Origin: Protonemura montana
Lineage: Eukaryota; Arthropoda; Insecta; Plecoptera; Nemouridae
Direction of reading: 5' to 3'
Assembly (NCBI GenBank): GCA_947568835.1
Contig: OX387606.1
Coordinates: 12,090,001 to 12,154,000, forward strand
Length of the DNA stretch: 64,000 nt
Shown here: positions 1-57,973 of the stretch, piece by piece
Position numbering within the stretch: the stretch's first letter is position 1
Layout: each line of letters opens with the position of its first letter
Made by a program: the position numbers and the translations under genes
Notes under the pieces: model-generated
Database searches by the model: none
What the model was told of the DNA's origin: nothing
Seen by the model: only the letters and a program-made list of their open reading frames with translations

Positions 1-1028
1 GAAGTGCGTTTCGGTTGGATCGGATTTGCAATTATAAAAAAAAGATATATTTTGCGGTCGCAAAAATATTATTTTTAACATCGTTTTGGCACGTTTTTAC
101 ACACCGTAGTGGTTCTGTGAAACGACTGTCTCTTCCAGTTGACGCAAAACTACATTGTACCGGAGACCGCATTTCAAAATCGTTCCGAATGAATTATTGT
201 GACAAGAATCTGTGGTACCTACTCTGATATTCATATTATTTTTTCTCTAAAACAATCTGATTATCAATCATTATCACTAACTTACTGTTTTTATAACCAG
301 CTAGTGCATGTTTTTGTCAGATTTTTAAGTGAACTTTTTTCAACTATAATAGTCTACTATTTCCCTCATTATATTTAACGTTAGTCATGTTCGTTATTTT
401 AAATTGATTGGATGTGATTTGCAACAGTTGCCACTTGATTTTACTTTCTTGCATTTACTTCTTGTAATACTTCTTGTACTTCTTGTATTTACTACGTAAT
501 GATCAATTTTCGTATGCCACTTAAAAGAAATCAATATTGCCCCAGTATTGAAATAAAACAACATTGTCTAGCATGTTTCCGCTAAACGAAAGTATCTGCA
601 AAGATAAGTTTTGCAACATGCGAGAGAAGTTCGCGTACCGAGGTTTACATCAATTTGATTTTTGATAATTTTCCAAATCATTGACCAAAAAGTTTCTATA
701 GTGAAATCACCAAAGTTAAGCGACATTGCGCTGGGTCAGGTATTAGATGAATTACCCTTGCTTATTTGCCTTACTTTCATTCGCCTTATTTCTTAACCTC
801 TCGACAGAATGGATATGTGGAGGAATCCTGTTGTTCGAGTTGAACCATCTTCCGGAAGTGAAGTTTAGCTCGTGGTCTCTTCAGTGCTCTTCGATATGAC
901 TCGGCTAGGTCAAGTTTCTCATCATCCTGAATATCACCTTTTCAATCACCGATTCTATTAGACAAATGCCACAGGGACCGTGCCTCTTTAAACACCACAA
1001 ATCAATACATCAATTATCCGTCTTGCAG
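1..1028 (+). other. Intronic or upstream DNA of the FAR gene
   Basis: AT-rich with no recognisable exon. The only structured content is the 5S-SINE relic at 697-1012, whose 3' end lies just upstream of the exon acceptor (TTGCAG, 1023-1028). Confidence 0.6.
697..1012 (+). mobile_element. 5S-rRNA-derived SINE, copy 1 (degenerate)
   Basis: It begins with the 5S-like ATCACCAAAGTTAAGCGACA, then GGTCAGGTATTAGATG (5S box C region), then the shared SINE body (CTCTCGACAGAATGG, GGAATCCTGTTGTTCGAG), and ends with the family tail TTTAAACACCACAAATCAAT. It lies in a FAR intron. The 5' 5S portion is shorter and more diverged than in copies 2 and 4. Confidence 0.85.
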
Positions 1029-4000: not shown

Positions 4001-7000
4001 AAATACGTGCTTTAAGATAGTTTTTAGACTCGTGTCTACTTTATCTAACCTTAGCACTAGTTTTGACAAAAACTATTTGAACTGGGTTTTGAATGCTTAG
4101 TGAAGAACAACTAAATTTCCCAAAGTTTCGTAGTCTGTTACGCTATCAAGGGTAAAAGTAGACGTTGATAAAGTAACTAGTTACGAAACGTTGGGAAATT
4201 TAGTTGTTCTTCACTTAGCATTCAAAACTCAGTTAAAATATTTTTTTTTTCCAAGTTAAAAAAATCGTATTGTTCACAGTTAAGTTTAGGAATATGAAGA
4301 AGTGCATTGCTACACCAAGCAAGTGGCGTTTTAAATTTTAGGACACTAAAAATGTTACCAAATCCTCGTGTAGTTGCATATCGTTGTATTACGCATTTTA
4401 GAATTACGCGTAATCGATTGTTCTCGATATACAATTTCTACACAACAGGCCTGCCGTAAAAATCAGATTTCACCAATAGATCATTTTTAACTCTGTAATA
4501 ATGCGTAGCTGCAATATTGCTTGTTAAAAGGTACTGAGGCAAAAAAATAATGCGATCATTTTGTTACGGATTGTTTGCTGTGTTGTTGTATGCACCTTTT
4601 TTCACACTTTCACGCCAGTTTCACTCTTGACAAGAAGGATTTGGATTAAAAAAATGAAATGGATTAATTTTTACTGAAACATAGTTCGTGGGCAATGTTT
4701 ACATGATGTTTTTTAATGTAGAGACTGATTAAAATCTTAAAATTTAGTTATGTACCTACACATCTAAGTGATTGCCTTACCACTCGTTTACATTCGGTCT
4801 AGATTTGAAAATATTTGTTTTCATTTGGTTGAAATGTGGAATGTTAATATTAAAGATTGCTTATAATAAGTCAGTCGGCAAGAACAATAAACCAAATGAA
4901 TATTTCAGTTTCAATACTAAATATCAACCAAAACTCTTAAACTATACAGTTTAATACGCAATTTTAAATAAAATAAAATAAGTAATCTTGTGTAAGTAAC
5001 TTTACTAGAATTCTTATGTTGAATGCAAAAATCGTGTTTTTTTATACAAGTTTTTCGCTAAGGTACGGTGATTTTGCACAAAAGCGCTTTTTCTTGAGCT
5101 TTTTTTAGAGATACACCTTGTTTCATTTGCAGGTTGATCGCCCCACACCCTAATTGCTACACATACTCGAAGAGGCTGTCAGAGAAGCTGATTGTCGACG
5201 AATACCCAAACATGCCGATGGCGATCGCTAGGCCAGCCATAGGCAAGTACCTGCACCCACACAAACACATGTACACAACACTACGCAGCATATGTACTCC
5301 CATAAATATATTGCATTGCATTGCGTGTTGAGCCGAATTAAAATAATGTCACATTTTTGCAAAATTGCGTGAAACAATTTTGCTAAAAGAAACAATGTAA
5401 ATGCCATCTATTGTGATTTGCATAAATAATTTTTGAGGGAAAATTAAGATTTCTTTGTCTTGGGAAGCATTGGAATTTTAAGTAACTTAAGAACTAGTAA
5501 ATCAGAACTACTAGGTGAAGAAACGTTAGCAACTATCGCAGCATTAACCTGATTTGGGAAAATCGCGGTATCACAAGTGTGACAAGTAGGTATCACCGGT
5601 CACCAGTATCAAAAATGCCAAAACTTCACCTTCCAACTACACCGTAATTTACTTCGTGGTTATCACCAGAGTCAGTTGTGGTGGCTGCTCATTCAAAAAT
5701 TACTTGAATAGTGAAAGAGAACTAGTATAGAGATACTTCATATTTTGCCGATACAAAAACAAAATATTTTTCTCAAAAAATAAGCGTGGAATTCAGAATT
5801 GAAGATTTACTGTGTCGACTGCAAATAATGATTTCAAGGTTGCATATTCTGCATTCGCCACGATGACAAGTATCTTATTCTTCCTAGAAAAATACCTAAC
5901 ACATTTATTTCGACTTCTTCGGCTCATCTTCCATCTTTTAAATATTAAGGTGATTTTTGTGACACTAACAAAGCATCGCCAAAAACATTACTCTTCATCG
6001 AGTCTGACTTTCTTTTTTTTTTTCTTAATAATAACGCACTTAGGTGCAAGTGAAACGCGTACATTAGCCGCAATGACTCGGCTTATATGCAACTGATTAA
6101 GACTAGGGCTTTGCCAACTCGATTTGTATTCGTTTTTGAAGGATGTGCGAGGAGAATTTTTGTAATGTATTCTTAGATCTGTTGACCAACGTCAATTAAA
6201 ATTTACCAAAAAACGATAGACCTCTGGGATCTTCTACCCCAGACCACATCACATCACCAATGTGGTAACTGAAATGCAGATGAAGACATTATCTTTAAAA
6301 AATGCACTAAAAGAATAATTCATTAAAAAATTGTTTTTATTCAGTTGGCGCCTTTTTAGAACACAAAGAGTAAATCAGGCATTGTACTAATGCTAATGTA
6401 GTAATGTTATGTAAGGCTAATGTACTTTAGTATCTGACTTTCCAAATGTTATATTGTGGAACCAATCGTGGAAGAAAATAAAACACAAATACAAATACAA
6501 ATTATGTTTTCTAAAAGTACCGTTAGACACTATTTACTTTTGGAGGATGCGCCCCAAGCTACTACGCCCAGCCTGGCGATTTCACCCCTTTTGATTCAGC
6601 GGAAACCCTAATGGACGTAGCCGGAAATACGTTTTCCGTTCGGATGGTAAACTGGCTGACATTTTATGAAGCAAATTTTTTTATGAAATTTGGGAGACTT
6701 GGAGAGCCGGGATCCGCAAAACTGCATACACAAAAAACACGAGATTTTTATTCAGTACCTACCATTAAAATAATTGTTATTCCTCCAAAAACATTTTTTT
6801 TTTTTTTTTTTTTTTTAGGAATGACGTAATATTATTTCTAGTCAACAATAGTTGGGGTGTGAACGTAGATGACCAGCAAATGTACGCACCCTCACACCAT
6901 GCTCATATTTTTTTCACGATTATACTTTTTTACATAGTCTACGTGACCTTCACAAAACACGATTTTTAGCGTCCGGATATTTACGGGCATCGAACTTGGT

Positions 7001-12848: not shown

Positions 12849-13286
12849 CCGAACGGTTTGGCGTGTTGGAAACACCGGTTCTCGTTAGATCACCGAAGTT
12901 AAGCGACACTGCGCTGAGTCAGGTATTGGATGGGCGACCATCATACACATGACCAGTTCTGTTTGGGAGAGAGGTTGGAGGAATGAAAGTTAGTACAGCA
13001 ACTTCATTCGCCTTGCTTATCAACCTCTCGACAGCATGGATTTGTGGAGGAAACGTGTTGCTTGCGTTGTACCGTCCTTCGAAATGGACGTTAAGCCCTT
13101 GGTGCTCTTCGACAGGAGTAGGCTACGTGCCGGCACCGGGTTTTCCCTCCTCCCTTCTAGGCTAGGTTAGGTTCATCATCATCCTCAGCATCATCCACTC
13201 ATTCACCGACGTCATTAGACCAGTGCCGCATGGCCAGATGTCAAAACAGTGCGTCGTTAAACACCACAAATAATAATAATAATAAT
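12849..13286 (+). mobile_element. 5S-rRNA-derived SINE, copy 2 (intact, with target-site duplication)
   Basis: Full-length copy. The head matches eukaryotic 5S rRNA: CACCGGTTCTCGTTAGATCA, then CCGAAGTTAAGC, then GGTATTGGATGGGCGACC, the internal control region used by RNA polymerase III via TFIIIA. The body contains TATCAACCTCTCGACAGCAT and GTGCCGGCACCGGG. The 3' end is CGTCGTTAAACACCAC followed by (AAT)n. The 13-mer AAATGCATTCCAA flanks it perfectly at 12836-12848 and 13287-13299, so this is a genuine retroposition event of about 438 bp. Confidence 0.95.
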
Positions 13287-13668
13287 AAATGCATTCCAAT
13301 TTCGATAATAGGACGATCTGTGGTTTTATGCAGTTTTAACAAAATAGGCGTTTGTCTGTTTTGAAAAAGTCTGGGATAATAGTAACGAGCGAAAAGACTC
13401 AATTTGGATACCCGGAAAACATATTGTGCATACCACTGACCAAACGGCTGGACCGTTATAAAAAATTGAAAACTGAATAAATACTAAAAAACTTAAGACA
13501 ACCTAATGAAACTTTGCAAATATGTTAACCACATTGATATGTATCGTGTCTAAAAGTATAATTTATTTAATTTTGGCGACTTGTACGCCATATTTAACCT
13601 ATTTATCGCTCTTTATCGCTCATCCTTCAACGCGATAAAGAGCGCTAGAGAAGCCCTTGTTTGTGTAA

Positions 13669-14937
13669 AACTTTACACGAGCTGGCTGTACCACATTGAT
13701 CCAAGACTTGACAGACATAGTTGATGGACGAGGGGAAACAGATGCAGTTTTGATTGACTTTTCCAAAGCCTTTGATGTGGTTCCCCATAAGAGACTCGTA
13801 GAAAAAATTAACAGACTGGGAATTGATGAAAAAATTGTCACCTGGATCGATGAATGGCTAACTGGTAGAACACAGAGAGTCAAAGTAGGAGAAAATTACT
13901 CTGACGAGCTTCAGGTTACGTCAGGAGTCCCACAAGGGAGCGTATTAGGCCCGCTACTGTTTATTATTTTTATCAATGATATAGGTGACAATATAAACTG
14001 TAAAATCAGATTATTTGCTGACGATTGCATACTATACAGTGAAATCAAGGACAGTGATGACTCCCATAAATTCCAAAGGAATATACATGAGATCGAAAAG
14101 TGGGTTGGAAAGAACAAAATGAAACTTAACTCCACCAAGAGTCAATTGATAAAATTTACGAACAAAAAGAAAGCAAATTTTTATCAATATACGCTTAATG
14201 ACGCAGTACTACAATATGTAGACAAATGTAAATACTTGGGAGTACACATCACAAACAATCTACACTGGAAAGAACACATAACCACTACAATTAAAAAAGG
14301 AAACAGTAAATTGAGCTTTGTAATGAGACACCTTAAGAAAACTAGTTGGGAAGTGCGAGAGAAAGCCTACACAAGTATAGTCAGACCTACGCTAGAATAT
14401 GCTGCTATCATATGGGATCCTTACACACAGCAGCTCTCAAAAGCAATTGAAAGGGTTCAAAGACAAGCGGCAAGGCACGTACTTCGGAAATACGGTCCGA
14501 GGCAAAGTCCAACAGAAATGATTGCAGACTTGGGATGGGAATCGCTTAAACAGAGACGAACTGAGGCGAAACTGAACGGCTTGTACAAATCAGTTGTGGG
14601 GTATAAGTCCTGGGGAGATATTGCTAGGAGGCTGGAGACAGCACAAGACCGCGGAAGATCGGACCACCCTAAGAAGATGCTGGAAAGGGGCTACAACACA
14701 GATATAGGAAAATACTCCTTTCTAGCAGTCAGTGTACGTGCATGGAATCGTCTCCCAAGGGAATTAGTGGATCCCATAGCAGATAATGTCAACAAATTTA
14801 AAACCCAAATTAAAATTCTAAAATTCTAAAATTGTAATTGTACTTAGAGATGATATTAAGATGTTTGTAACCGAGTATAACATGTAACTCAAAACAAATG
14901 TATAAATAAATTATTATTATTATTATTATTATTACAA
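13669..14937 (+). mobile_element. 5'-truncated non-LTR retrotransposon (CR1/Jockey-like) with reverse transcriptase
   Basis: An open frame of about 386 codons runs to TAA at 14827-14829, with no start codon of its own at the left end. Reverse transcriptase motifs in order: FSKAFDVVPH (motif A), SGVPQGSVLGPLLF (motif B), LFADDC (motif C catalytic Asp pair), then YLGVHI, and the family-typical C-terminal WNRLPRELVDP. A short 3' UTR ends in (TTA)n at about 14914-14937, the usual LINE tail. The endonuclease domain and ORF1 are missing: a stop lies in frame at 13666 and no match is seen upstream. The RT frame itself is intact, so the insertion is fairly young. Confidence 0.92.
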
Positions 14938-16631: not shown

Positions 16632-16663
<32 letters not shown>

Positions 16664-25100: not shown

Positions 25101-28100
25101 GTGGCTACAAGCCAGCCTTGATTTCCTAAGATCATCAATTTAAAAAACCAATTTATGTGAAATATATTATCATCTTGTCGCTGACCATGAAATATTTTGA
25201 TAATTTACTATGATATTCGCACCATATTTTGAATTGCGTATTTGTAGCCACGTAATGTTACGGCAATCTTATATTTTGCAAATAGAATCGATGATTGCTT
25301 TGATTTCATCGAATTTTTTTCTTCAGGCGGTACTCAGCAGTCCCAGAAATACAGAGAAGATTGCATTTTACCGACTTCTGCACAATTTTCTTGGACAAGG
25401 ACTCATCACAAGTAGTGGTACGGTCAAGTGCGGTTTTTTTAATTACTCATACTATTGACGTGACTACGTCTTAAAGCGCATTATATCGGGAGGCATGTAC
25501 GGATTTGCTCTCCAAAATGGCACATGTGTAACAAGCCCTACAGCCTACAGGAAACAAAGGACAGAATGCGATTTATTATCATTCAATAGTTCAGACAATT
25601 TTCTAAAAGCAATTTTTTTTTATTTTCGATAAAATAAATATCGGAGGCGTTAGAGGGGTTGGCGTTTTTAATGCTCTCCATAAGACCAATGTTCAATTAC
25701 GCAAAATGGCAAATGTGTAACAAGCCCTACAGCCTGCAGGAAACGAAGGACAGAATGTGATTTATTATCATTCAATAGTTCAGACAATTCTCTAAAAGTA
25801 CTTTTTTTGATTTTCGATAAACTAAATATTGGAGGCGTGAGAGGAGGCGGCGTTTTAAGCACTCGTCATTAGACTAATGCAAAATAAAATATATATATCG
25901 CAAGATGACACTTCCATCCCAATCTGTATAGTCCTTCAGCATGTAAATTAGATATGAAAACACAACCCAAATAAAGAGAGATGTAAAACTTGCATGTGAA
26001 GTATGGTCAGTACTGTAGTTGACCTACGTGCCTACGCGGTAGTTGAACGTAGGCACGCTTAAATATCGGCCGTATCAATAAGATACAGGTACACCCGTTT
26101 TTTTTAATAAGAGTCATATTTAACAATGCACTTATGATTGATTCGTTGTTTCTCAATTAGGGAATAAATGGCAATCACACAGAAAACTAATCCAGCCATG
26201 CTTTCATATGAAAATTATGGAAACGTTTATCACAACATTCGCTGACAGTTCGAATATTTTTCTGGAAAAACTGAGAGCTATTTCGAATGAAAAAAATGTG
26301 AACATCCTATCTCTTGTAAACGAATCCGTCCTAGACATTCTCAACGGTGAGTCTAATTTTTATTTTTTTATTTAAACTATGTCTACAATACGGAAAATAT
26401 GGATGTTGTAAGTAAACATTGTTTTAGTGCAAGTATTCCAACATTTGCACAGCATGCAACGGCATTTCTTTTCTAGAATCGGTGTTGGGCATCAAAATAA
26501 ATCGAGATAGGTCTAAGGACGACGGAATTTCGCCTTTCAGACAGTAAGACAAAGTGCAGAAAAAATACTTTTGTGTGGACTTTTGAAGAGTTTGTTTCAC
26601 CTATGCACGTGTTTCTCAATATTTGCAGGGGTAAAGTTGTGGCTCAGGATCGCATAACTAAGCCTTGGCTGTTGTTCAGCTTTGTCTACAACAAAACGGA
26701 GCAGGCTAAAAAAGAGGTTTCACAGAAAGACCAGCTTTTTGAGTTTACAAAAAACGTAAGGGACTTGTATTTTTCTCGCTGAAAACATCCGAAATTGAAA
26801 CATTGATAGAAATAGAATAAACAGATATTTTGTGTTTAACTGAGATGCATTTAGGGTACCTAGACACGGTAATGGTAGTTTGTTTGTTAGTCTAGTGTAA
26901 GTTTATTTAGTTTACTAAACGTTTATTGGTTCTTCTTTATCGGAGAAAATTCAGGTCAGATAAAGTCACAGGTATAATCCCAGAAAGGTCGGGGAAATTT
27001 GTTGATTTTTGCATAACATTCAAACCCGAGTTTCAAGAAGTTTTTTTAAACCGGTGTTAAAGTCAGATAAAGTTGTCACGAGTCTAAAATCCATGCCAGG
27101 AAATAAATTATCTGTTCACTTCGTAATTTTCTTATATTTTTCCAGATTATTAGGCGAAAAATGGATGAAAGAAACATTTTGAAATCTTTGGTCATCGATG
27201 CGCCAGCTGGTAATTCTAATTTTGTGTGGACACTTTAGAAAACTTAGTTTATCGCCTTTCGAAGGATGTTTTGTATATTTGAAGCATCACTTACTCATTG
27301 TTATTATTTTCAGATGCTCAAATGGACGAGACTAAATCGTTTGCAGACTTCCTGATCGACATTGCCGAGAAAAACGAACAGTTTAGCGAAGAAGACATTG
27401 TTCACGAGCTGTGCACGTTCATGCTAGCGGTAAGCACACAATAAAATGAAAATAACTTTCCTCCATGACTAGTTTCAAAATTCAATCCTCTCTCCTTCCC
27501 AGCCGACCAATTCTAAAGTAAAACTCCTTAATTTTTAGGGTCAGGATTCGGTTGGTGCTGCTATAGCATTCTGTCTACACTTCCTGAGCAAGCACCAGGA
27601 TATTCAGGATAGAGTTGTCGAGGAACAAGATGCCATATTTGGAGACTCAACACGAACCCCCAGCATTCAGGACTTGAGGGAAATGCGTTTTCTAGAGCAA
27701 TGCCTCAAAGAAACCCTCAGGATGTACCCCAGTGTTCCTCTAATCGCGCGAAGGATAAATGAAGACATACGAATGGGTACATTGGTGACATCATTATAAT
27801 GATTAATCAGATGAGAGATTACTAGAAAATCAATAACTAACCACTAATGGCTATCTGATGATAGTAATATTGCTAAAAAACGTGACCTTGGGTTTTATAA
27901 GATAACCGATTACAGGTGACTACACTCTGCCAGCTGGGTGTGAAGTTTTGATATCGCCCTACGTGATCCACCACTTGTCGCATATTTATCCAGATCCAGA
28001 CAAATATGATCCTGAGCGCTTCTCGCCCGAAAATGTAGCTGCGAGACATCCTTACGCGTTTATTCCTTTTAGCGCAGGACCAAGAAACTGCATCGGTAAG

Positions 28101-34600: not shown

Positions 34601-37600
34601 CTTTAAATTATTGATTTATATGAAATAGATGCCATCAACGGTCGGAGTACTATTTAAATCCCCGACTTTCAGACCTAGTAGAAACCGAACAGTTTGGCTT
34701 GTTGGAAACATCGGTTCTTATCAGATCACCGAAGTTACGCAACACTGCGCTGAGTTAGGTACTGGATGGGTGACTATCAAACACATGACCACTTCTGTTC
34801 GGGATCGAGGTTGGAGGGATCAAGTTGGTGCAGCAACTTCATTCGTCTTGCATATAAACCTCTCAATGGCATGGATTTTTGGAAGAATCCTGCTGTTCGA
34901 GTTGTAACGTCCATCGAAAGGGACGTCAAGCCGGTGGTCCTCTTGGTGTTATTCGACAGGAGTAGGCTGCGTGCCGGCACCGGGTTTCCCCTCCTGCCTT
35001 CTAGGCTAGGTTAGGTTCATCATCAACCACTCATTCACCAACGCCATTAGACCAGTGCCACAGAACCCGTTGTCAAAACAGTGCGTCGTTAAACACAATA
35101 ATCAATCAGACCTAGCAGCAAGAATATACTTCCCTTCCTACCTTTCTATGCGTCTGGCATATGTTTGTGTGGATCGGTAGGTTTATTTCTAACATGTACA
35201 TCGTGAATGAGACGGTAAGATTTTCAGCCAATCGGCTGAAAGTAACGCTCGCGCTCTTTCCACCACTCTGACCGAGAGCTGTACAAAAACCTTGCTGTAT
35301 CGTGTTTTGCTCACTTCTTCGATGGCGTCGCCGTTGATCAGAGGTCCGGCGGTGATGGCTTCCCCCCTGTGGCCCATGACGATGATGACCATGCTGAGTG
35401 CTCTCATCCCGTGAATACAGCTGATGGAGTCCTTGCTTCTTTCTTTGGACTCTCGTTCTGTCAGTTGCTCCCAGTGGAAGCGTACGGAGAAGGCTTTGGC
35501 CCAAACTGAGAGAAAAGGTTCCCGGAAAAATCAGAATAAGCAAAGAAAAAAGCAACACCTCTCATGAATGGAAAAAATCTGTTGCTTTGAAATGATCTGT
35601 CTGTGAATCTGTTTGAGTAGTTTGAACAGTGTGAAAATCTCCAATCATCTGATGTAATAAGTTTGAGAAAACGGTCTAACACAGCTAAAGTCATCTTTAC
35701 CGAGCACTGGGCGTTGTCGCTTCTGCCTTGTATTCGGGAGGTACCGGGTTCATTGTGGCCAGCTAACCTACGTGTGGTTAACAGGAGAATTTGGACAAAA
35801 GTTTCTGGGATATTTCTGAGATAGTTACACCTTGAAAAGGGCATAGCCGCCTCCGTTTTCCGAATACGATTTCCCAGCCATTCAGACAGGGGCATTTTAA
35901 TTAACTTTTCATATGAGAAAAAAAAAAGTTTCCTGTTTGTCTTGTTCCTAATATGCTGCAAGTCTGCTCGAATTTTGTTATCTGAATTGCGCTTAGACCG
36001 TTAATATTCGAGGCTAAGCATAATTTTGGTCAACCGTTAAGTTTTCAGTCAACAGCTGTTGTTACCTGAAGAAGACGGACAATCATTTTCATTTTTGACC
36101 AGCAGCTTATCGTAAGTTAACAGGAATGATGCGTACAAAATTACAGCACACCTGTGAAAAAGAAAACAGTAATTACCATAAAATAGCAACTGAAATTAAA
36201 ACCCAAAATTGAAGGGAACACGGTACCAGAACAGTGTAAGCCATTTGTTTGACGACTGATTTACAACTTGACACATGGTCTCTTCGATCTTAGTTTGAAT
36301 TGAGACTGCTCGATAGGTGGTTTCGAGGAATTTCAGCCCCATTTCCAAATCGTGCCCAGTGCACGCCGATGGTATGCAGATAGCGACGTGAAGGCGATTT
36401 CGATGCAGCTTCATTCTGTTACTTGGAACCTAAAGACACCAGGCCACAACTTTTAATACAAAGTATTGACACAATTTTGCATACATTTGCAGTTGATTGA
36501 AAATAACCGACCGGTTTTTTTACTTGGAGAATCGAGAGATCTCTGCTCAGCCAGCATAATGGAAGGAAAATGGATTTAAAAGCATATAAACAACACAGTC
36601 GAAATTCCCTCACAGGGTTCTAGTTAAAATTTAAGTTAACCACACGTCCACATAAGTGCACCGGGTCGTCTGGTTCTTGTCGAACAAATTTAAATCTTCA
36701 CCGATAACGACTATAGTTGGTGCCACACGGATCTAATTGGTAACCATTGGCTTCTTTATTGTTAACATTCTTTTTCATTTCACGGGGCTAAGAAATCTTT
36801 TTAAGGACTTTCTGTGAACGATGAAACGGTAGAGTTTCAAATCACAGTAATATATTAATCAGGTTAAAAATGAAAACTATCACATTTTGTTTATTTTTTA
36901 AAGGCGACAAAGTTTACTCTTGTAAAAGTCTTGCCTGTAGTTTTTTCCACGCCGAGCAGGATTTTGAGTCGCCCTCGCTGCATCTCGAGTCCTGTTCAAT
37001 CGTGGGAGTGACCTCGACTGTGGCGATGCAGTACTTTCCTGTGATCCTGTCCACCCCAGCCTCTCCGTTGTCAACGGCCAAGCACTCATCGAAGTTACCG
37101 AGGTGGTAAATCGATCCACCCAAGATACCTGAAGGCTTCGAAGACGCGTCGAGCACTTAAATGAGATGAAATCATGTTTATTAATGAAGGTCACCACACA
37201 AATTTGGTTCTGGAAAATGTCTCATTTTTATTTTATTTTCTATAACTTTTATTTTTTACATATTATTACATAATGTTAGCAAATAATCAGAATCAATCTT
37301 GTTATTCAAAGAACATAAATAATCCCCGCGTAAATCGAGGTTGGCATGTGGGTGCGTCTTTTAAACATAGCCATTTTTTATTCATGATCCAATGTAACAA
37401 AATAATGGATTACTGACAGCGAAAAAATAATATAAGGTGATATATTATTGCAATTTACGCTACTGTAACCCTCTAAAAAAGTTTACCCAATCAAAGAATC
37501 GAACCCCGGCCTTACCAGTGCCCTAATCAGTGTACAAAATAACAAAAACTCTGCGCTTGACGAGAATTTACACTTTAATGAACGGCTTAAATTTGGGGAG

Positions 37601-40152: not shown

Positions 40153-43100
40153 ATGGAGGAAGAGGGCAGGTATGCCCAAAACATACAAGATCGTTTCAAC
40201 GATACCCTCAAGAAAACCGACGCTGCTATAGGTATTTACTTGACACTTCAGGTGGTAATATACAACACTGATAATGAGAGATAATAATTTAATTTAAACG
40301 ATTTTCATCTCTATAAGCTGTAGTTTCGTTTTCGCCGGATGTCAACCGTGAAGAAGCAGATTTTGAGAAGGCAATCGAAGAAAGTGGGCATGGAAAATTT
40401 AATTACCTATTGCTGTTGGCCGCCATACCCGCAACATGGAGTAGTGTATTTGACACCATGAACACTTCGTTCTTGCTACCAGCTGCCGAATGTGATCTGC
40501 AACTCTCACATTTTGATAAGGGGCTCTTAAACGCAGTCGTCTACATTGGTAGGTACCATCCTTCAAGATATTTTGGAAAAATGTAGCATGGAATATTGTT
40601 ACAAAATAACTTATTGTGCGTTCAATTTGTGTTTGAGCCTTTTTCGGTGGTTTTATTTGTATGATATCAAGTTATCAAGGACTTTAAGGCACCCTCACAT
40701 CGAGACATGCACCTGAAACTACATTCAAATACTCTTTTATTTCGTTCAGGCATGGTACTGAGCGCTTTCGGCTGGGGTTTTATCTCCGACACTTGCGGCA
40801 GGCACCGTCTCCTTGTGGTTGGGTACTTTCTCGATGCAGTCTGCAATTTAGCAGCCAGTTTCGCTCAGTCCTTTTGGCTGCTCCTCGTGCTAAAATGCCT
40901 CGGGGGTATAATGTAAGACAACGCAAAACACAAGTGATAATATTTGTGTACTGCTCAGAACATATTTAAACGTTTTTTAAACGGAGTTTTTTCTTAAAAA
41001 TGTTTTTGTCTGTTGACAGAATTTGTGGACCGATGGTGATACTAATGTCATATCTTGCTGAGTTCCAAGGGGTTACTCGACGAGCTAAAGTCATGATGTG
41101 GACGGGAGTTTACATGGCTGCAGCGCAGATTGTTTTGCCAGGTAATTGGAAAGGACAAGCCGCTTAAATGTTGAGATTTTCAATACGTTTTAGGAACAGT
41201 TGAGAAGATGAGTAAGGAGTAGAGGTGAAGCAACATGGTGAACATGTTTTGATAATAATAAAACATGGTGAACTTTCCATGTATTGGAAATTAATTAACG
41301 AAACTTGAGTAAATATAAGCCTCACTTACGAGCATGAATTAACAGAACTTAGGAATGTCAACAATGGAAAAAACTGTCAGTATTATTAGTCAGTTTTAGG
41401 TAGTCTTAAAGGCAGTATTACAGTTAGTATTATATTTTTAGCCTCGTGTGTACTTTTCTTTAGATTTGACACACCATTTGCACTAATTTGCAAAAAAACA
41501 AAAACTCGTTTCCAAAACGGATATTGGAGGCTTAGTAAAAAAATACTCCTGACGTTTTGTAATTCATGTTGCAATTACTTTATCAATGGTAAAAGCTAGG
41601 CTAGAACCGAACGGTTTGGCGTGTTGAAAACACCGGTTTTCGTGAAATCACCGAAGTTAAGCACTACTGCGCTGAGTCAGGTATTGGATGGGTAACCATC
41701 ATACACATGCCCAGTTCTGTTTGAGAGAGAGGTTGGAGGGATGAAAGTTAGTACAGCAACTTCATTCGCCTTGCTTATCAACCTCTCGACGGCATATATT
41801 TGTAGAGGAGTCCTGCGGTTCGAGTTGTACCTTCCTTCGGAAGAGACGTTAAGCTGGTGGTCTCCTTGGTGCTCTTCGACAGGAGAAGCTACGTGCCGGC
41901 ACCGGGTTTCCCCTCCTCCCTTCTAGGCTATGTTAGGTTCATCATCATCTCCTCATCATCAACCACTCATTCACCGCCGCCATTAGACCAGTGCCGCATG
42001 GCCAGATGTCAAAACAGTGCGTCGTTAAATACCACAAATCAATCAAGCTAGGCTGGCTTGACTACCATACCATTAAGAAACAAATATTCAAAGAATTATT
42101 TTGGAAAAAAGTTTATTTGTATTTTTTATCAGTAAATTTGGGGAAATGACGGGCAAGCTAGTAATGTTTTCAACCTTGACTGTTCCAGCAATCGCGTGGT
42201 CCATTATCCCCCAAACATGGCAGCTGAACTGGACTTGGTTTGGAATGGCGCTCACGTTTAACTCCTGGCGATTGTTCCTGGTGATCTGCGCCATCCCAGC
42301 AACCCTTGCGTCGAGTCTACTCTATTTTTACTTCGACGAGAGTCCCAAATATTTAATGGCGTGTGGTCGAACAGAAGATGCTTTGAAAGTCTTCAGAAGA
42401 ATCTACGCCATCAACACAGGGATGCCAATTGACACGTATCCCGTACGTAAATCCACACTCCTTTCAGCGAGAGAAGAGCGTGTTTGCTCCACCGGTCGCT
42501 TCAGGGGGACATGCGGCAAAACCCTCTTTTGTCCACAATTTTTCTTTTGCTCTTAAACTTTGTCGTGTCAAGATGTTTTGTTTTTTTGAGCTATTATAAG
42601 ATTTTATCTTGCAGTTAATACAATATTGGGAATTTTTTGCAGATAATATAACAAGTATTTTGATATCCCGCATACTGAAATCATAACTGAAATCATTCAT
42701 GTGTTCGTAGAAATTCTGGGAGCAGTCCTTGTGTCGGTATCTTCTCTCATGGGTTAGACTGTGGAGACGATACTCGGTATATGATAGCAAATTCTTACGA
42801 ACTAATCCTCCTGGATTAACCTCGTTCCATAATCTCAGTCTCACACCCAAAACGTATTGTCCGATTGTCTATCAAGACAAGGACACTACGAATTGTCTTA
42901 AGCGTAAGTCACTATTGTAGATATATATCATTCAATTCCTTCAATTTACGGCCCTCGATTGGAATGTGAATTTAAAACAGAGTAGGGACCACTGCATTTC
43001 GTCAGTTCACAAATGGAAAGTTATTTAGAAATCTTACATATGCATTTGTGTGTTTAAAGGTAAAATACTTAGTCGACGAGACTAGGGCTGGAACGGGAGT

Positions 43101-45877
43101 TCTAACCTCTGCGAAATGGATAAGCAAGAGTCCTTTCGCGATCCTGAAAATGGGATGTCGACAGGCGAAACCTCTCTTTACGTTTCCTTTACTGCCAAGG
43201 GCTCTGCTTGTCTTTACTCTTCAATTTGGAGCGCTTTTAGGGTAGGTACAACTTTACTTGCACATTATTTTTTGGCGCATGCATAAACCGCATGTTTATT
43301 ATTTTTATTATTATTAACCTTCGAGCAACATGAAAAGTTAACTGATTGGAAAATGATTATATCTTAAACAAGCTGCCAAAAGGTAACAAGCTGTTTATTT
43401 ATGATCAACCCATAATATTAAATAATGAAATATAAACAGAAAATGATGTAATGCGATGGAGGGCTAACAAAACTCGTTTAATTTTTCATAGCATGAACAC
43501 CCTTCGACTGTGGCTGCCTCAAATTTTTGCAACCATGGAGGAGTTCTTACATTACCATCAAGAAATGAACATCACCGTCGGTGGCGACTCTTTGTGTGAG
43601 ATGTTGTATTTCAACCATTCGCTTGTGGCCAATCAAGTTGTGAAAGAAGTTACCACGTGTAGTGTGGTGAGTACATGAAACAAAAGTAGATGCAGAGTTT
43701 AGATAAATTTCTCTGTGACGCTAGTCTAATGACGTCGGTGAATGAGTGGGCTATGCTCAGGATGAAGATAAACTTAACCGACACTTAAAGGGAAAGGGGA
43801 AACACGGTGCCGGCAAAAACCTACACTTGTCGAAGAGCACCGGCAACAACAACAGGATTCCACCATAAATCCAAACAAGAGATAGATACGCACGGCAATT
43901 GAAATTGTTACACTTATCTCAATTCCCAACCTCTCTCTCGAAAAGAACCAGTCATAAGTATGATGGTCACCCATCCAATACCTTACCCAGAGCGATATTG
44001 CTTAGCTTCGGTGATATCCCGATAGCCGATGTTTCCAACTTTTCAAACCGCTTGGTAAAGCAAAAATATCAAGATGGTGCCACCTTTCTTGTGCCCCGTT
44101 TTCTTTAGCACCCATCTGCGGATAACGCAAAAAGAAAACGCTTTTATTTTTATGTGTGACCTTGACTTACTAATGAATAAAAAAAACCACCTTTGACTGC
44201 TTTTCAACCATAAAAAATAATTTATGCAGATTGAAAGGAAATTAGGTCTAAGATAATGTGTGTTTTTCTGCAGTCGATGCTGGAAAATGCTGTCTACGTG
44301 AACTCGATGGTCGTGGGTGCCATCACTGCTACGTGCATCATGGGTGCCAGCTACTTGGTGAACTCTCTGGGCAAGAAGAACATCTTGAGTAAGAACATAG
44401 AACAATGAAAAACGAAAGAAGCTGCCCTAGTGTCATAATGGCAATTACACTTGCACATAACTGAACAGCAAGGATCCTGTCAAGGATCAAGCAGACCTTC
44501 ACAGTTCTAACTTTTCACCAGCTTAGAATCAAATAATATCGCCAGCGACCACGTTTAGAATTCTTCACGTTAGCTTACTAAAAATCCAAACCTTAGATGA
44601 CTTTATACAAAATAAAACCCATTCCATCGCCACCGCCCCCACTAAAACACAACTCCATCCACAGTAAGCTCCTTCATGCTCGGCGGCGTCAGCGGAGTGT
44701 GCATCTTCTGGGCCCGAAGCACGATTACGACGCTGATCCTATCGTCGCTGTACGTGGGCATGTGCGGAATTTGCGCCACGGCCGTTGTCGGTGTCGTCGT
44801 CGACTTGTTCCCCACTTCGTTACGTTCGATGGCGCTCGCCCTCACAATGATGGCTGGGGAACTTGGAGCCACCATCGGCAACCTGCTCTTCCCTGTTTTG
44901 CTGGACATCAGCTGTATAATGCCGTTCTTCCTACTCGGGGGAATCGTCATATGTATGTTATTCATTTGGTGAATTTGCAGATGCATTGTTATTGGCGCTT
45001 CACGTTACCTGTAAACAACTAGTTACGAAAATAGTTTAAATATTGTTTTGTTATGTACGGGAACCGGTGTTGTAAGTACCGGTTCTCGTGAGATCACCAA
45101 GGCAAAATTGCGCTGGATCAGATATTGGATGGATGACCATCATACACGATCAAAATATCAAAACAATAACAAATTCACTGACAATTACAATAAAAGTACC
45201 AGTACTGTTCGCGAGAAAAGTTGGAGGGATGAAAGTTAATACAACATCATTCGCCTTGCTAATCAACCTCTCGACAGCATGGATTGGCGGAGGAATGCTG
45301 TTGTTCACTTTGGACTGTCCTTAGGAAGGGACGTTAAGCCGGTGATCTTCTTTGTGCTTTTCGACAGGAGTAGGCTACGTGTCGGCACCGGGTTTCCCCT
45401 CCTCTCTTCTAGGCTAGGCTAAGCTCATTATCATCATTATCACTCAGGCCAGTGCTACATGGGCCCGTTGTCAAAAGAATGCGTCGTTAAACCCTGCTAC
45501 ACAATAAATTAATTCAACCAGTTCATTGAACAAAATACATACAATGAAATGATCCTCAAATTAATTTTGGGAAATTTTGACATCCCTATTCGGCGTAGCC
45601 AAGATATAAAAAGAATGATTTCTTTCAAAAAATAAATAGAACATTTTCCTTCACACATTGTTTACTAGAGCATATTTCCAATAATCTGATGCTTTCGTCC
45701 GTTAGTTTACGATATTTGTTTGACTTCAGACCCTCAGTTGAGTTTCTTTATTTTCATATGCACGCATGATAAGATCATTGTAGATCTAGATGCTAATTTT
45801 TCAATGTCTCTTTTCTTCCAGTTTGCTCGGCGCTTAGTTTGTCTCTGCCTGTGACGCATAAAATACCTCTGCAGTGA
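40153..45877 (+). CDS. Synaptic vesicle glycoprotein 2 / SVOP-like MFS transporter
   Basis: A 12-helix major facilitator of the organic-cation/sugar type, related to SV2 and SVOP. Exons: 40153-40231, 40324-40548 (or from 40318), 40750-40912, 41020-41141, 42189-42442, 43060-43241, 43492-43666, 44274-44388, 44665-44952, 45822-45877; phases match; 552 residues. Early helix LLLLAAIPATW; MFS motif A GFISDTCGRHR between helices 2 and 3; SV2 signature DESPKYLMACGRTEDALKVF; IYAINTG; a large lumenal loop after helix 7 with Asn sites; late helices MVVGAITATCIMGASYLV and GMCGICATAVVGVVVDLFPT. In insects such genes form multicopy sets that include non-neuronal transporters, so a synaptic role is not implied. 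The ATG at 40153 is the first good start but a more 5' exon is possible. Three introns carry 5S-SINEs. Substrate unknown. Confidence 0.93.
41605..42044 (+). mobile_element. 5S-rRNA-derived SINE, copy 4
   Basis: Full-length, close to copy 2: AACCGAACGGTTTGGCGTGT, ATCACCGAAGTTAAGC, GGTATTGGATGGGTAACC, then the body and CGTCGTTAAATACCACAAAT. It is flanked by AAGCTAGGCTR at 41593-41603 and 42045-42055. It lies in intron 4 of the SV2-like gene. Confidence 0.93.
43722..44053 (-). mobile_element. 5S-rRNA-derived SINE, copy 5 (antisense, 3' truncated)
   Basis: Reverse-oriented copy: the - strand shows the 5S-like GATATCACCGAAGCTAAGCA and GGTATTGGATGGGTGACCAT, then the body, ending near GACGTCATTAGACTAG without the usual CGTCGTTAAA tail. 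It lies in intron 7 of the SV2-like gene. Confidence 0.88.
45061..45503 (+). mobile_element. 5S-rRNA-derived SINE, copy 6
   Basis: The head is CCGGTTCTCGTGAGATCACC and AGATATTGGATGGATGACC. An insertion of about 50 bases separates head and body. The tail is CGTCGTTAAACCCTGC. It lies in the last intron of the SV2-like gene. Confidence 0.88.
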
Positions 45878-46091
45878 ACAACTTGAGAGTCATGGAGAAG
45901 GTGAAATATTTAAAGACTGTCAAATTATTTTTGATTAAATGTATTAAAGCAATCGTTTACATATAAACGAAAAACAATGTTTTTCCAGTTTCATTGTTAT
46001 TCCAATTCTATTGTTTCTAATTCCATCATTTTTCCATTGCACTATATGTAAATTGGCTACTATTTCTGATTCCTTGCCTCTTCTGGAAGAT
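45878..46091. other. Convergent 3' flanks, SV2-like gene / NRF-6 gene B
   Basis: Only 214 bases separate the two stop codons, so the 3' UTRs probably meet or overlap. Confidence 0.6.
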
Positions 46092-52161: not shown

Positions 52162-52169
52162 TATAAAAG
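52162..52169 (+). promoter_or_regulatory. TATA box of NRF-6-like gene C
   Basis: TATAAAAG lies 51 bases before the start codon at 52213, which predicts a short 5' UTR of about 20 bases. Confidence 0.6.
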
Positions 52170-52212
52170 TGAGGAGTCAGTCGTTGCTGTGGCATACCTA
52201 AGAGTGGACAAA

Positions 52213-55200
52213 ATGTGGCACAGAAGTGCGATTTTGTGGTGCATTACCTTTATGGTTTTGTGGAAAGTGAAAATCTCGGACGGTAAAAATGAAACGTGCT
52301 TGGCTAACGGTGGTGATAAAAACATTAACCATGGCGGGAAAGGAAAATTGGATACACTCTATGATTCAGGTATGATTTAAAATAAGCAAGAAGCAATCTT
52401 CCTTATGTAATTTGTATAATTATTTGTAACCGATTGATTTTCATGACGCAGGAATTCACTATCTACACGAGAAAACTGATGCGTCTGCTCGCAAATCAAT
52501 TCAAGATCTACTTCCGAGGATATCAATTTACTCTGAATCAATAAAAAGTATAAAGAACACTCTGTGTCGTCAGGATGCTGAGAAAATTATGTCTCGAATA
52601 CAACAACTCGACATTGATGCTCTGAAAAGTAAGTTATATCCACACAAATGAAAATATTAAATGAAAATTCTTTAGGTCAGATGAAAATGAGAAAACGTGG
52701 ATCTGATATGGCTTAGGACAGAGGCGCACGTGCTCTTTAACTCGCCTAAACCGGTATTCGGCACGTCGATTAGGATATTATAGATGTAATTATGCATCTA
52801 CGTCAGATGCACCAATAGCTTTCGTCTGATATTTCGTTACAATTCCTTAAGCTCAAGTAGCAAAAAAATTGTCTACAGAGTTACCAGTAATTTCGCAACA
52901 ACTATACGCAGAGGTTTGATTTGCGCAACTGATATATCGCCAAAGTAAAAGGACACAAGACGCTGTTACACCAATTCAGTACATACCAAAAAAAAAAATG
53001 TCGTTTAATTATGCGTCATGAATTGTATATGACATATAAATCGAATGTTTCAGTGCTGGACTCCACGGGTAAAATGTCGTCTGGTTTTCTTAACGGGAAC
53101 GTCAATCAGTTGGGAGATTTCGACCAATGTTTGACCGTCAACTCCCAATCAGATATTCGAGGAAAGTACTGTCTCGCTTTCCTGGATGTCAAGTTAAAGC
53201 ATCATCAGATGGACGAATTGGTGCATTCGTATGGAGCAATTGTTAGCAACCTTTCAGACGTAAGTTAAGTATCTTAACCTTGTTGAATATACTTGTTAGA
53301 CCGAAAGTTTAGGCGCGTTAAAAACACCGGTTCTCGTTAGATCACCGAAGTTAAACATCACTGCGTTGGGTCAGGTATTGGAATGGTGTCTGTATACTCA
53401 ATACCAGTTAATTTGTGGAGGAATCCTGTTGTTCGAGATGAACCATCCTTCTGAAGGGGCATTTAACCGGTGGTCCTCTTTGTGCTTTTTGACAAGAGTA
53501 CCCTACGTGCCGCTCCGGATTTCCTTTTCTCACTTTAAGGTTCGGTTAGGTTCGCCATCGTCACCCGCTCATGTCAACTCCATCAGACAAGCGCCAGAGC
53601 ACTGGCTGTCCAAACACCACAAATTAATCAAAATCATGAGTATTCAATTTGGTGTTTATGTTCGGTGTAGTTCTCTCTCTTCATGGTTCACCCCCTCATT
53701 ATTAATGCTAAGAGATTGGAGTTCTAGAAAACTAAGAAACCATTGGATGAATTTTCCAGCCCGGTCATCGAGTTGCAAGATTCTCCACCATAAGCTGGGG
53801 CTTCTGCATGCCAGATACGTGCTCCTCCCAAGATTTAGAAAACTGGATTAAAGACACATGGTCAGACAACGCAGACATAGAGATCAAAGTCAAAGTCGAA
53901 AGTGACATGTGCGTTACCGATGAACCAGAACCTTACTCGCTGGCGAAGATGATGTCAATGTAAGTTTGAGAAAGTGAGGTGACGTGATAATCAACGGTTG
54001 TAAAAAGGCCGCCATAGTGCTATTAAAGTAAGTTGCATAACAGAATTGCCATTGAAATATTTTTATTTGATGTTACAGCCTATTTTTTCTGACGTTGGTG
54101 AGCATGACTGTCATTGGATCATTCCTCAAAGAAGATGGTAACAATAACAAAGAGCACGAGAACGTTAAAGATGGTTAGTTAACTTCAAATAAATCAACGC
54201 CAATCCTTACAATTCGAATTACGATGACAAAGCGGGTGTTTATTCTTTTTTGCAGGTACCTTTGTTCAATTGCTGAAGTCGTTTTCGCTGCGAAGAAATA
54301 TGAACACTCTGTTCAACACATCGACCCCTGAAGACGATATTAGATGTCTGCACGGTATTAGGGCTCTAAACGCGATGGCTCTGATAATATTCCACAAATC
54401 CGCTGCTGTCATGTTCAACCCTTATGTTAATAGGACAGCAATGGCCAGGGTCAGTACTTGTTTCATGATCTTGCCATGTCCAGGATATTCGCGATTACAA
54501 ATTGGCTAGTTTTATGACTACATGAAGTAATTCTTATTTTACAGTCCCTTGGTTTGGCGTGGTCAGTTATTGGAAGGACAGCGATTATTTACACAGATGC
54601 ATTTATACTTATAAGTGGTTTGCTGACTTCATACATTTTTATCAAAGAACTAGACAAGAAAAAGAAAATTGACTTGAAAGATAAATATTGGACTCGCTTC
54701 TTCAGGTACAATGAGTTTTAAAGTTTTGTTCTTATTTCAACATCCTTTCTTTAGTTATTAAAATTCACAAGGGCAATCATGGTGAGCATCTTTGGTCTGA
54801 CAATAGAAAGTGCTGATCATCATTCATGTTGCAAATATGATTATTTAATTGGGCCTAATAACCGATAACTGTGTTTTTCTGACATGCCAGGATCGCTCCC
54901 AACTTGATAGCGATGATCCTGTTCTGCACCTACATCATGGTGGACATGGGATCAGGACCTCAATGGAATCTAGTGGTGAAACACCACTCAGATCTTTGTA
55001 AAAGCAACATGTGGAAGAATCTTCTATTCATTCACAACTACTTTGGTTTTGAGAATATGGTGAGAAAAATATTTATATTTATTCGTCTCTATTTGACTAT
55101 GTCAAATAAGTTTTATGTTCTGGGACTAGTGGGGCTGAACATACTTAATTTTCCTGGTGAGGACTAAAAATTCTAATGAAATATACATTTGAACAACAGT

Positions 55201-57973
55201 CAAAAGTCAAGGAATCAAGCAAATGTCACATTTCAAAAGTAGATTGAAATGCAATTTACACTTACATAAAAATTTAAAGGAACAAAGAAATTGTTACCAT
55301 ATCGTTTCCGTTGTCTAAATTTTCAATTGTCTGAGTGTTGACACGTGAAGAATTACCATTGTTTCACAATGAAATATAAACTACTTCAGCATAATTCCTC
55401 ATGTCGTTTTTGCCAGTGCCTGACCCACACCCACCAGCTGGGAATCGACATGCAGCTGTTCGTGGTGTCTCCTCTGATCATCTGGATCTTGTGGCGACAT
55501 CTTAAGACAGGTCTGCTGCTCATGTCCACGTTGGGTGTGATCTCTACCTTCCTCCGGTACACCGTGGCCATTGACAAGCAACTGAGCCCGGTGTTGTACT
55601 TCGGCGCAACGTAAGCCCCAATTGCTGCTTGGAACCATCCCTAAAAAAATCTTACAAAACTCTTTCATCGTCAACAGTTAGCCGAGTTCAAAAATGTAAT
55701 TTTTCACCCAATTTCATCAACTTAATTTCGATAACTGTAATTTAAATACGGTATTAAAAAAAAAAAAAAACATGATGAAAATTGGGCCGGTAATCTGTGT
55801 CTTAGTGCGAAGTCATCTCTCCTTTGAAATCATCGAGCCTCCTTTTTAATTCAGGTAGATTCCATCAGCTAATAATAATAATAATCATCAGAAGAATTAA
55901 TGGCTAACAATAAATATGTCTTATTCTTTTCAGGGTGACACAGATGTTTGACACAGCCAATTTCTCCTATATTTTACCAAGCCATCGCGCTACTGTGTAT
56001 CTCATGGGAATAGCGATGGGCTTTTTTCTACGACGGTTCAAAACAGTTCCGTTAAACAAGGTTAGTTAACCCTGTCAATCGAAGTGAAGTTTAGCCCTTG
56101 AAGGGAGATTTCAGCATATGGACTGCCTCCTGAAGGACTGCACCAATATGTGGATTTCATTTTAGTAGAGTTTTCAGTGATGGGATAGCAAAATATTAAT
56201 TAATGCTAAGATATCTAAAAAAACAAACAACTTAGTAAAAACAAAATGTTGGTTATCAACAAAGATGGTTTTAGTATTTTATAGTTCTCACTTGACTCGC
56301 ATATCATCCTAAAAGACTAGTGATGGCGCCATTGTAAGAAAAGTATGAACTCCCTCTTGAAACAGAGTATACACTCTTCGCCGAACATTACAGCGATTTA
56401 ACTCAAGACAAATTCCAGATCTCGGCCTTCTTCCTGTACTTGGTCGCCATATCGGTAGGACTGTACGCGATGTGCGGTCCCTACCCAATGGCTCGCAGGG
56501 GGTACGTGTACTCAAGCCTCGATGCCGCCAACTGGAACGCATTTGCCCCTGTCCTGTGGTGCACTATGCTCTGCTTAGGAGTCGTGCTTTGCTCGAACGG
56601 ATATGGAGGTAATCATGAAGCACAGTTTTGATTGATTTGTGGTGTTAAGAGCGCACTTTTTTGACAACTGGCCCTGTGCCACGAGTCTAATGGCGCCGGT
56701 GAAAGTGTGGATGGTGATAAAGATGATAAAAACACAGCCTAGACTAAATGGGACGAGATATTCGGTGCTGGCACACAGCCTCTCCTGTCGATAGCACCAA
56801 GGAAACAATACAACTCAGACAATAGAATTCCTCCACGAATCAATGCTGATATTAAGAGCAAGACGACTTGCTCTTCGACTCTTCGACTTTATCGCTTTGA
56901 CCTCTCTCTTGAACAGAACAGGTCAAGTGTTTGATGGTCACCCATCCAATACCGGACCCAGGACAGTGTTGCTTAACTTAAGAGATCTCACGAGAACCGG
57001 CGTTTCTAACACGCCAAACCATTCGGTGCAGTATCGTCTAGCTCCAGTAACATTCTTTTGCTCCAACTATTCCATTTTCACACCTTTTACTCACGCTTTA
57101 GTACGTTAACTAATCACTGAACGAATCCCCACCACCTACTTCAACGTCGCCTCCTTTAACTTTCTTTGTCATATTCTCCTTCCCACTAAAATTAACCTCC
57201 ACGTATATTTTTCTCGACATTCGAATCTAGATCCGTGAGAGTCATTAGTTTGAGTGACGATTAATTGACTAACTTAGTTTGATTGTTTACCTTCCGCATC
57301 TTCTTATATCTAGCATCTTTCAGCGTCTGGCTTCTTTCTCCAGGTTTCCTAAATGACTTCCTGTCGTGGCGAGGGTTTGTTGTGTTTACTCGCATGGCCT
57401 ACGGCGTTTACCTCGTGCAGTTCCCAGTTTTCTTTTACAATGTTGGCTCCCAGAGAACTCCCGAGTTCTACACACCCCTCATGCTGGTAAGTCAGGTAGT
57501 TAGGTAATTAACCTAACCAAACCTAACCTGACTTGTTCAATAACAAGTAATATTCTGCTGAATAAAAATTATTATTATTATTATTATTATAAGTCGATAA
57601 AGTATTGCTGAACATTACTGGCTTGTGTGTTTTAATCAATTAATTTCATATTTTCGTTTCCTTAGACCAACGTGGGCGAGATATGTGTTGTGTTGGTATC
57701 AGCTGTTGTGTTGACACTTCTAGTCGATCTGCCGTTTCAACAGATCAAGAAGATATCCTGGAGAAAAACTCAGGTTGATTGTGAGTATAGAATCATTGAA
57801 CTAAAGTGAGATAAAAAATTGTAATGAGGCTAATTTTGTTGTTTTTTTATTTATTTGTAGCAGTCAAATCTGCAGCCAAAGAAAAGTTCCAAACCTTGAC
57901 CAGGATATCGGAAAGAGAAGAAACGATTTTGAAACAGAGACAGCGCCATATAGCTGCTCGTGTCACTGGTTAA
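52213..57973 (+). CDS. nrf-6: Nose resistant to fluoxetine-6-like acyltransferase, gene C
   Basis: Exons: 52213-52369, 52452-52628, 53054-53259, 53760-53959, 54079-54173, 54256-54449, 54545-54705, 54891-55059, 55417-55610, 55934-56060, 56419-56608, 57344-57486, 57666-57780, 57861-57973; 746 residues, phases consistent. Signal peptide MWHRSAILWCITFMVLW; NRF domain with GDFDQCL, GKYCLA and CMPDTC; core CLHGIRALNAMALIIFH (about 313), TDAFILISGLL, LTHTHQLGIDMQLFVVSPL, YLMGIAMGFFLRR, YGGFLNDFLSW and FTRMAYGVYLVQF. The C-terminal cytosolic tail is basic. The start has a good context (ACAAAATG) and a TATA box 51 bases upstream. Exon layout matches gene B, including the intron that splits the N-terminal region. 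Introns 3 and 11 hold 5S-SINEs. Possible ATTAAA at 58054. Acyl substrate unknown. Confidence 0.95.
53299..53630 (+). mobile_element. 5S-rRNA-derived SINE, copy 7
   Basis: The head is AACACCGGTTCTCGTTAGAT, then CACCGAAGTTAAAC and GGTATTGGAATGG. The body lacks the central block after the C box but keeps GGAATCCTGTTGTTCGAGAT and the tail AAACACCACAAATTAATCAA. It lies in intron 3 of NRF-6 gene C, sense orientation. Confidence 0.87.
56632..57031 (-). mobile_element. 5S-rRNA-derived SINE, copy 8 (antisense)
   Basis: The - strand reads a 5S head (CGGTTCTCGTGAGATCTCTT, GGTATTGGATGGGTGACCAT), then the body, and ends in TTAACACCACAAATCAAT. It lies in intron 11 of NRF-6 gene C. Confidence 0.9.

Follow-up and report, generated by a model that had tools for sequence, protein, structure and literature searches.

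Promoter arrays in a 5S rRNA-headed SINE family of the stonefly Protonemura montana

SINEs with a head derived from 5S rRNA are known from several insects, e.g. SINE3-1_TC of Tribolium, HaSE3 of Helicoverpa, and PxSE4 and PxSE5 of Plutella (PMC3272025, PMC8010984). The family described here was found in a window of 64 kb (the whole stretch of genomic DNA that was analysed). As far as the accessible parts of these papers describe them, the SINE3-class insect elements share with it a 5S head containing boxes A, IE and C, a body and a short simple-repeat 3′ end, as well as the presence of thousands of copies and of target-site duplications. Compared by description, they differ in their tails, which are (TGA)n or (ATGT)n, and not (AAT)n as in P. 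montana. The element adds one insect family to the already known 5S SINEs. The accessible text of PMC8010984 does not contain the word "tandem", and that of PMC3272025 does not contain "tandem repeat".

The closest published case to the promoter arrays reported below is that of the squamate SINE-derived satellites (sSats; PMC10702118). According to the accessible part of that paper, sSats consist of tandem units, each formed from a portion of a SINE, and of a longer terminal unit that includes the SINE end, and they show alternating subvariants and homogenisation, all of which is also seen here; sSats reach hundreds of units. The snake sSat unit, which takes in the 3′ portion of the head, box B included, and some of the body, is similar to the 91-bp unit of P. 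montana. The two systems differ in that the squamate heads are of the tRNA type, whereas the present head is 5S-derived, and in that the arrays reported here occur in elements possessing both head and tail, some of them with target-site duplications and starts within a unit. Among sSats, few forms possess both SINE ends (PMC10702118, section 17), and neither "target site" nor "TSD" appears in the accessible text.

Two other kinds of element are comparable in part, again as described in the accessible texts. Dimeric and multimeric SINEs (Alu, Twin of Culex and the Dip tandems, mentioned in section 19 of PMC10702118 and in a reference of PMC8010984) likewise have more than one promoter unit per element, but they are composed of two units or of whole SINEs in tandem, whereas here a promoter sub-unit is repeated a variable number of times. 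The Cassandra and Ajax TRIMs (PMC10886601) also carry a 5S-derived promoter within a mobile element but, unlike the SINE, they are LTR elements with 5-bp duplications. Searches of an open-access library revealed no promoter array inside a 5S SINE. Within that scope, complete 5S SINEs that contain promoter arrays, together with duplications and mid-unit starts, constitute a new combination of known features and not a new class. These arrays matter more than the addition of one further insect 5S SINE, and they link jumping elements to satellite-like DNA.

The SINE family in the window and in the genome

The preliminary description of the window listed eight SINE copies. When copies 2, 4 and 1 were searched against the 64-kb window by blastn, all eight places were re-found, on the strands given, with the starts shown in Table 1 (for copy 6, at 45067/45198); copies 3, 4 and 7 begin 2-4 bp further on than originally placed. 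Alignment of the eight copies revealed one family with a common body. To judge from their sequences, the repeats can be classified as a young and abundant 5S rRNA-headed insect SINE of the SINE3 type. The consensus of the element (432 bp) is composed of (i) the 5S head, (ii) the body and (iii) the tail CGTCGTTAAACACCACAAAT, followed by (AAT)n.

Table 1. Positions of the SINE copies and associated features within the window.
Feature	Position	Strand	Description	Basis
SINE copy 1	697..1004	+	5′-truncated, from approximately consensus position 33	blastn, alignment
Copy 2, left target-site duplication TAAATGCATTCCAA	12835..12848	+	perfect 14-bp match (L001)	
SINE copy 2 (L001)	12849..13271	+	full length	blastn
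Copy 2, 5S rRNA-derived head	12849..12967	+	model positions 1-120	RF00001, 61.3 bits, E 2e-10
Copy 2, internal control region of 5S head	12896..12945	+	consensus 48-97	position from consensus
Copy 2, body	12968..13251	+	common to other copies	
Copy 2, tail CGTCGTTAAACACCACAAAT	13252..13271	+	exact at 2,417 places of the genome (control, 0)	
Copy 2, (AAT)n terminal repeat	13272..13286	+		
Copy 2, right target-site duplication	13286..13299	+		
Separate LINE remnant	13669..14935	+	RT ORF 13669-14829, (ATT)n tail	RVT_1, 97.3 bits
Copy 3, left target-site duplication CAGACCTAGTAG	34670..34681	+	one mismatch versus right duplication, 35107-35118	by eye
SINE copy 3	34685..35103	+	full length	blastn; RF00001, 41.1 bits (from 34684)
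Copy 4, left target-site duplication AAGCTAGGCTAG	41593..41604	+	one mismatch versus right duplication, 42045-42056	by eye
SINE copy 4	41607..42039	+	full length, 89% identity to copy 2	blastn; RF00001, 49.4 bits
SINE copy 5	43721..44055	-	decayed, tail gone	blastn, alignment
SINE copy 6	45067..45492	+	head damaged, insertion of ~47 bp	blastn, alignment
SINE copy 7	53301..53622	+	internal deletion; end by eye at CCACAAAT	blastn; RF00001, 41.4 bits
SINE copy 8	56635..57026	-		blastn; RF00001, 35.8 bits at 57027-56912(-), under gathering score

Copy 2, at 4.7% divergence from the 30-copy genome consensus, is the least diverged copy of the window. Its internal control region comprises box A, IE and box C. 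This region forms part of the 91-bp unit (consensus 48-138) that is multiplied in other copies of the genome. Target-site duplications flank copies 2, 3 and 4 (by eye; that of copy 2 was also scored). None of the eight copies is multi-headed, and the promoter arrays are not visible within the window and absent from the preliminary description. All copies except copy 2 had been assigned to introns; coding exons on either side fit this placement, which is uncertain for copy 6. Pfam searches with eight cellular exons of the window gave three matches above the cut-off, one below it and four exons without a match. Copy 1 lies 5′ of an exon of a fatty acyl-CoA reductase, with Pfam NAD_binding_4 in 909-1328. 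The best named hit to a fatty acyl-CoA reductase query was that of Periplaneta americana (57% identity), ahead of Hymenoptera and others, which indicates an insect with no close named relative among the hits listed.

The resemblance of the heads to 5S rRNA, originally extended to all copies, holds at the gathering score of RF00001 (38 bits) for four of the eight (copies 2, 3, 4 and 7; the covariance model thus does recognise the heads), and copy 8 falls just below this score. Copies 1, 5 and 6 gave no RF00001 hit at E values up to 5; they are counted as members because they align with the other copies. The true host 5S genes score 108.7-117.5 bits and are located elsewhere. The SINE head and the host 5S gene share 92 of 112 aligned bases (82%), i.e. 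37/45 before, 40/48 within and 15/19 after the internal control region. The head therefore represents a whole 5S-like gene, the promoter part of which shows no special conservation.

Copies were also counted in the genome (258 Mb, 34 contigs), as the preliminary description had proposed, and thousands of copies with target-site duplications were found. A first look with copy 2 as the query yielded 3,641 candidate places; 40 of these were scored, and all 40 match nearly the full length of the query with at least 91% identity. The exact 20-base tail matches the genome 2,417 times and its reversed pattern 0 times, which is far beyond chance. Strong target-site duplications (score of at least 10) accompany 22 of the 30 best-scoring copies, compared with 0/284 shuffled pairs; their length varies between 9 and 16 bp. 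These 30 had been selected for their resemblance to a single copy and are not an age sample; 29 of them diverge by 0.5-4.7% from their own consensus. That consensus includes one mis-oriented row (L025), whose 28% divergence is an artefact; L025 itself has a target-site duplication. A perfect (AAT)6 tail is present at 89 sites genome-wide. Both the low divergence of the 29 copies and these perfect tails support the earlier suggestion that the family is still or was recently active.

Structure and abundance of the promoter arrays

In many copies elsewhere in the genome the promoter part forms consecutive repeats, numbering from several to dozens. Their frequency was estimated in a sample selected independently of the head, consisting of 40 exact-tail sites of contig C1 (out of 100 listed) and 20 of the 89 (AAT)6-tail sites. 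All 60 tail-selected sites proved to be SINE copies, and 13 of them contain extra head units in tandem (12 with a 91-bp unit and one with a 92-bp unit); within the young-tail part of the sample the proportion is 4/20. L092 was considered as a fourteenth multi-headed copy; it has an internal deletion instead and was left out of the count.

The 91-bp unit corresponds to consensus positions 48-138 and comprises the internal control region, the 3′ part of the 5S sequence and approximately 20 nt of the body. The 92-bp unit, found in L073, corresponds to positions 1-92. The hexamer AAGTTA is present in the consensus at both 48-53 and 139-144, and the array junction falls there. The 91-bp period and the AAGTTA junction were confirmed base by base in eight arrays (L074, L077, L078, L079, L080, L087, L101 and L105), which were examined together with ~2.5 kb of upstream sequence. 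In all eight the units are strictly head-to-tail, with 2 to 8 unit pieces in each. A neighbouring minus-strand copy has 9 unit pieces.

Additional arrays are present in L121-L134; of these, L121 and L122 were chosen from the list of junctions on contig C1 for their apparent length. The former is the largest array seen (49 unit pieces; 4,694 bp), and the latter contains 22 unit pieces with no body or tail. In L123 several 92-bp units are joined to several 91-bp units. L135 displays a third, 15-bp type of expansion.

The 22-mer spanning the 91-bp junction has 16,055 exact matches in the genome, compared with 3,406 for the head start, 4,430 for the body start and 548 for the 92-bp junction; all of the reversed controls gave 0. 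The exact junction was recovered in 15 of the 25 junctions of the tail-selected copies. As a rough estimate, made by hand from the 16,055 junctions and this recovery rate, the arrays comprise ~27,000 units, which amounts to ~2.4 Mb and 0.9% of the genome. Two properties of SINE-derived satellites are present: tandem units formed from part of a SINE plus a SINE terminus, and long homogenised arrays (up to 49 pieces, with a unit divergence of 5.4% within and 8.9-10.1% between arrays). The positions of head matches on contig C1, given below, bear on a third such property, subtelomeric preference. A single genome contains this young element in single-, few- and dozens-headed form.

Growth and movement of the arrays

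The array statistics given here refer to the 60 tail-selected copies plus hand-picked loci. The 3′ end could be read in 18 array elements. Eight of these have a duplication scoring at least 8 (shuffled pairs, 1/344); the remaining ten have no clear duplication and were counted against array movement. Two elements are particularly informative. L074 starts at consensus position 100, has 7 joints and is flanked by a perfect 14-bp duplication, and L153 starts at position 111, has 4 joints and is flanked by a perfect 13-bp duplication. Since both start in the middle of a unit, flush with perfect duplications, an RNA of at least two promoter units must have been retrotransposed; it does not follow that the full present-day number of units was contained in the template RNA. 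L121 (start at 78, 49 pieces, 10-bp duplication) counts for less, because its target site falls inside another SINE head, inverted and part of a repeat, and the duplication could reflect homology of the repeat.

The similarity of the units provides evidence of another kind. Units are closest to each other within an array, which points to local growth or homogenisation, and units that hold the same ordinal position in different arrays show no greater similarity than others (10.1% versus 8.9%), which speaks against the copying of long arrays as a whole. In a comparison of 42 single-headed with 13 multi-headed copies, the nearest body relative was single-headed for 12 of the 13, so the multi-headed copies do not form a clean subfamily. 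Two body alleles are nevertheless unevenly distributed: 217C occurs in 11/13 multi-headed versus 13/42 single-headed copies, and 244T in 12/13 versus 23/42.

We consider it probable that the family is a 5S SINE with hexamer-linked promoter arrays, which grow locally and some of which are retrotransposed as array RNAs. The 5S-like head would supply an internal RNA polymerase III promoter, and LINE machinery would recognise the tail and copy the SINE RNA, the insertion of which creates the target-site duplications of about 9-16 bp. The directly observed units, their junctions and their counts may then stem from the AAGTTA sequences at 48-53 and 139-144: slippage or unequal exchange between these would multiply the unit 48-138, the segment 1-92 being multiplied less often. 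The arrays would lengthen and homogenise at their site. The duplications around arrays and the mid-unit starts, likewise observed directly, would mark those cases in which array-bearing RNAs were retrotransposed. Complete elements would in this way come to contain anything from 2 to about 50 units of the promoter.

It is also conceivable that the arrays form almost wholly in place, in a satellite-like manner, and that retrotransposition spreads just single- and double-headed elements. We give this explanation a little less than an even chance. It agrees with the greater similarity of units within than between arrays, with the alternation of A and B units in L074 (as in dimer-wise expansion), with the range of array size (2 to 49 pieces), with the bodiless and tailless array of L122, and with the distribution of head matches on contig C1, where 29 of the first 100 listed are located within the first 1.36 Mb of 33 Mb. 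The mid-unit starts of L074 and L153, which need a template of at least two units, are at odds with it, as is the occurrence of multi-headed copies at 13 of the 60 tail-selected sites, including four of the 20 young-tail ones. The SINE may also, as it moves, take along its own Pol III promoter in the form of an array of variable unit number: tandem internal control regions would arise by hexamer-mediated duplication, RNAs of at least two units seeding arrays throughout the genome and so turning a retrotransposon into a dispersed promoter satellite, possibly because more units raise the transcription of a weak type-1 head; we put this forward with more doubt than confidence. It is unlikely that the extra units persist through a gain in Pol III transcription from a weak, upstream-dependent type-1 promoter. 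The repeated unit includes the internal control region in both types of array, and a weak-promoter argument is made in the accessible text of PMC3272025, but the promoter bases are not preferentially conserved and the repeated hexamer explains the ends of the duplication.

Two explanations without a SINE are extremely improbable. Tandem 5S pseudogenes or stray copies of 5S genes, the former already raised in the preliminary description, would account for the RF00001 hits only; they are refuted by the common body and tail of the copies, which are moreover interspersed, dispersed across contigs and accompanied by duplications, and the true 5S genes, with their much higher RF00001 scores, sit elsewhere. 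An LTR miniature element of the Cassandra or Ajax type, equally improbable, would likewise combine a short mobile element with a 5S promoter (PMC10886601, in its accessible part), but no terminal repeats flank the present element, its duplications are variable, at about 9-16 bp, and not 5 bp long, and it ends in an (AAT)n tail. The presence in one genome of forms with one, a few and dozens of heads, with target-site duplications showing that RNAs of at least two units have been retrotransposed, makes two questions directly testable: how an interspersed element becomes satellite DNA, and whether a 5S-type SINE benefits from additional internal promoters.

Tail, LINE sequences and truncated copies

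The tail, reported as common to the copies of the window, is exact in copy 2 (1/8); by eye it is altered but recognisable in copies 1, 3, 4, 6, 7 and 8 and absent from copy 5. A comparison with 12 LINE 3′ regions, taken from 500 nt after the RT domain onwards, revealed only an 11-base chance match to the tail. None of the 60 tail sites belongs to a LINE and, by eye, none of the 89 young tails lies directly behind any of the 150 RT hits listed. A LINE remnant begins ~400 bp past copy 2 in the window; it was rejected as the SINE partner, its tail being unlike that of the SINE. In viral contigs, a search with the SINE tail gave one chance match (L136, with ORFs that look bacteriophage-like by eye), and a search with the array junction gave no match.

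The consensus contains no TTTT, which is compatible with Pol III read-through and could be due to chance. Eight of the 16 truncated tail-selected copies begin at consensus positions 90-115 (P 1.8e-6, for an interval picked after seeing the data). Such starts could reflect entry of the reverse transcriptase into a folded 5S-like domain, or internal transcription starts. Two of the truncated copies, L140 and L141, apparently have the same flank, and the proportion starting at 90-115 is then perhaps 7/15.

True 5S genes and their histone neighbours

True 5S genes of the host genome (G000) lie at positions ~70-105743 of contig C11 (loci L034-L060), where they are arranged in a recurring unit of ~9.5 kb, each unit carrying two plus-strand copies and one minus-strand copy. 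At one of these loci, L038, a histone 3′ stem-loop was located ~185 bp away from one 5S copy (8 of 30 loci scanned). Judging from this spacing in the sequence, the 5S and histone genes of C11 seem to be linked in one tandem cluster. The end of C11 that bears these repeats also holds reverse-transcriptase matches: 33 of the best 150 (of 1,781 candidates) fall within its first 0.93 Mb (~54 kb-932 kb).

Tandem growth and truncation in the SINE head

In locus L135, positions 87-107 of the SINE consensus, which lie inside the head, have grown into a 15-bp minisatellite. With it, tandem growth takes three forms in the 5S-headed family. Among the copies selected by their 3′ tail, 5′ truncation points cluster at consensus positions 90-115 (8 of the 16 truncated copies; this interval was chosen afterwards).

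Genes and other repeats of the window

The window (1-64000) is gene-rich, with exons of a fatty acyl-CoA reductase, a cytochrome P450 and a sugar transporter scoring above the Pfam cut-offs. Several more exons look, by eye, like those of nose-resistant-to-fluoxetine acyltransferases, and Pfam confirmed none of the four. The window also contains two short repeat pairs and an inverted repeat, the latter possibly the remnant of a small DNA transposon.

Repeat features and truncated SINE copies
Feature	Location	Details
15-bp minisatellite	L135:19-309	
Copies truncated within consensus 90-115	L074, L100, L139, L140, L141, L150, L153, L154	
Short tandem or direct repeat pair	window 63674-63792 and 63882-64000	97% identical
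Short tandem or direct repeat pair	window 25513-25619 and 25702-25808	93% identical
Inverted repeat	window 4068-4149 and 4165-4246	82-nt arms, 87% complementary, 15-nt spacing
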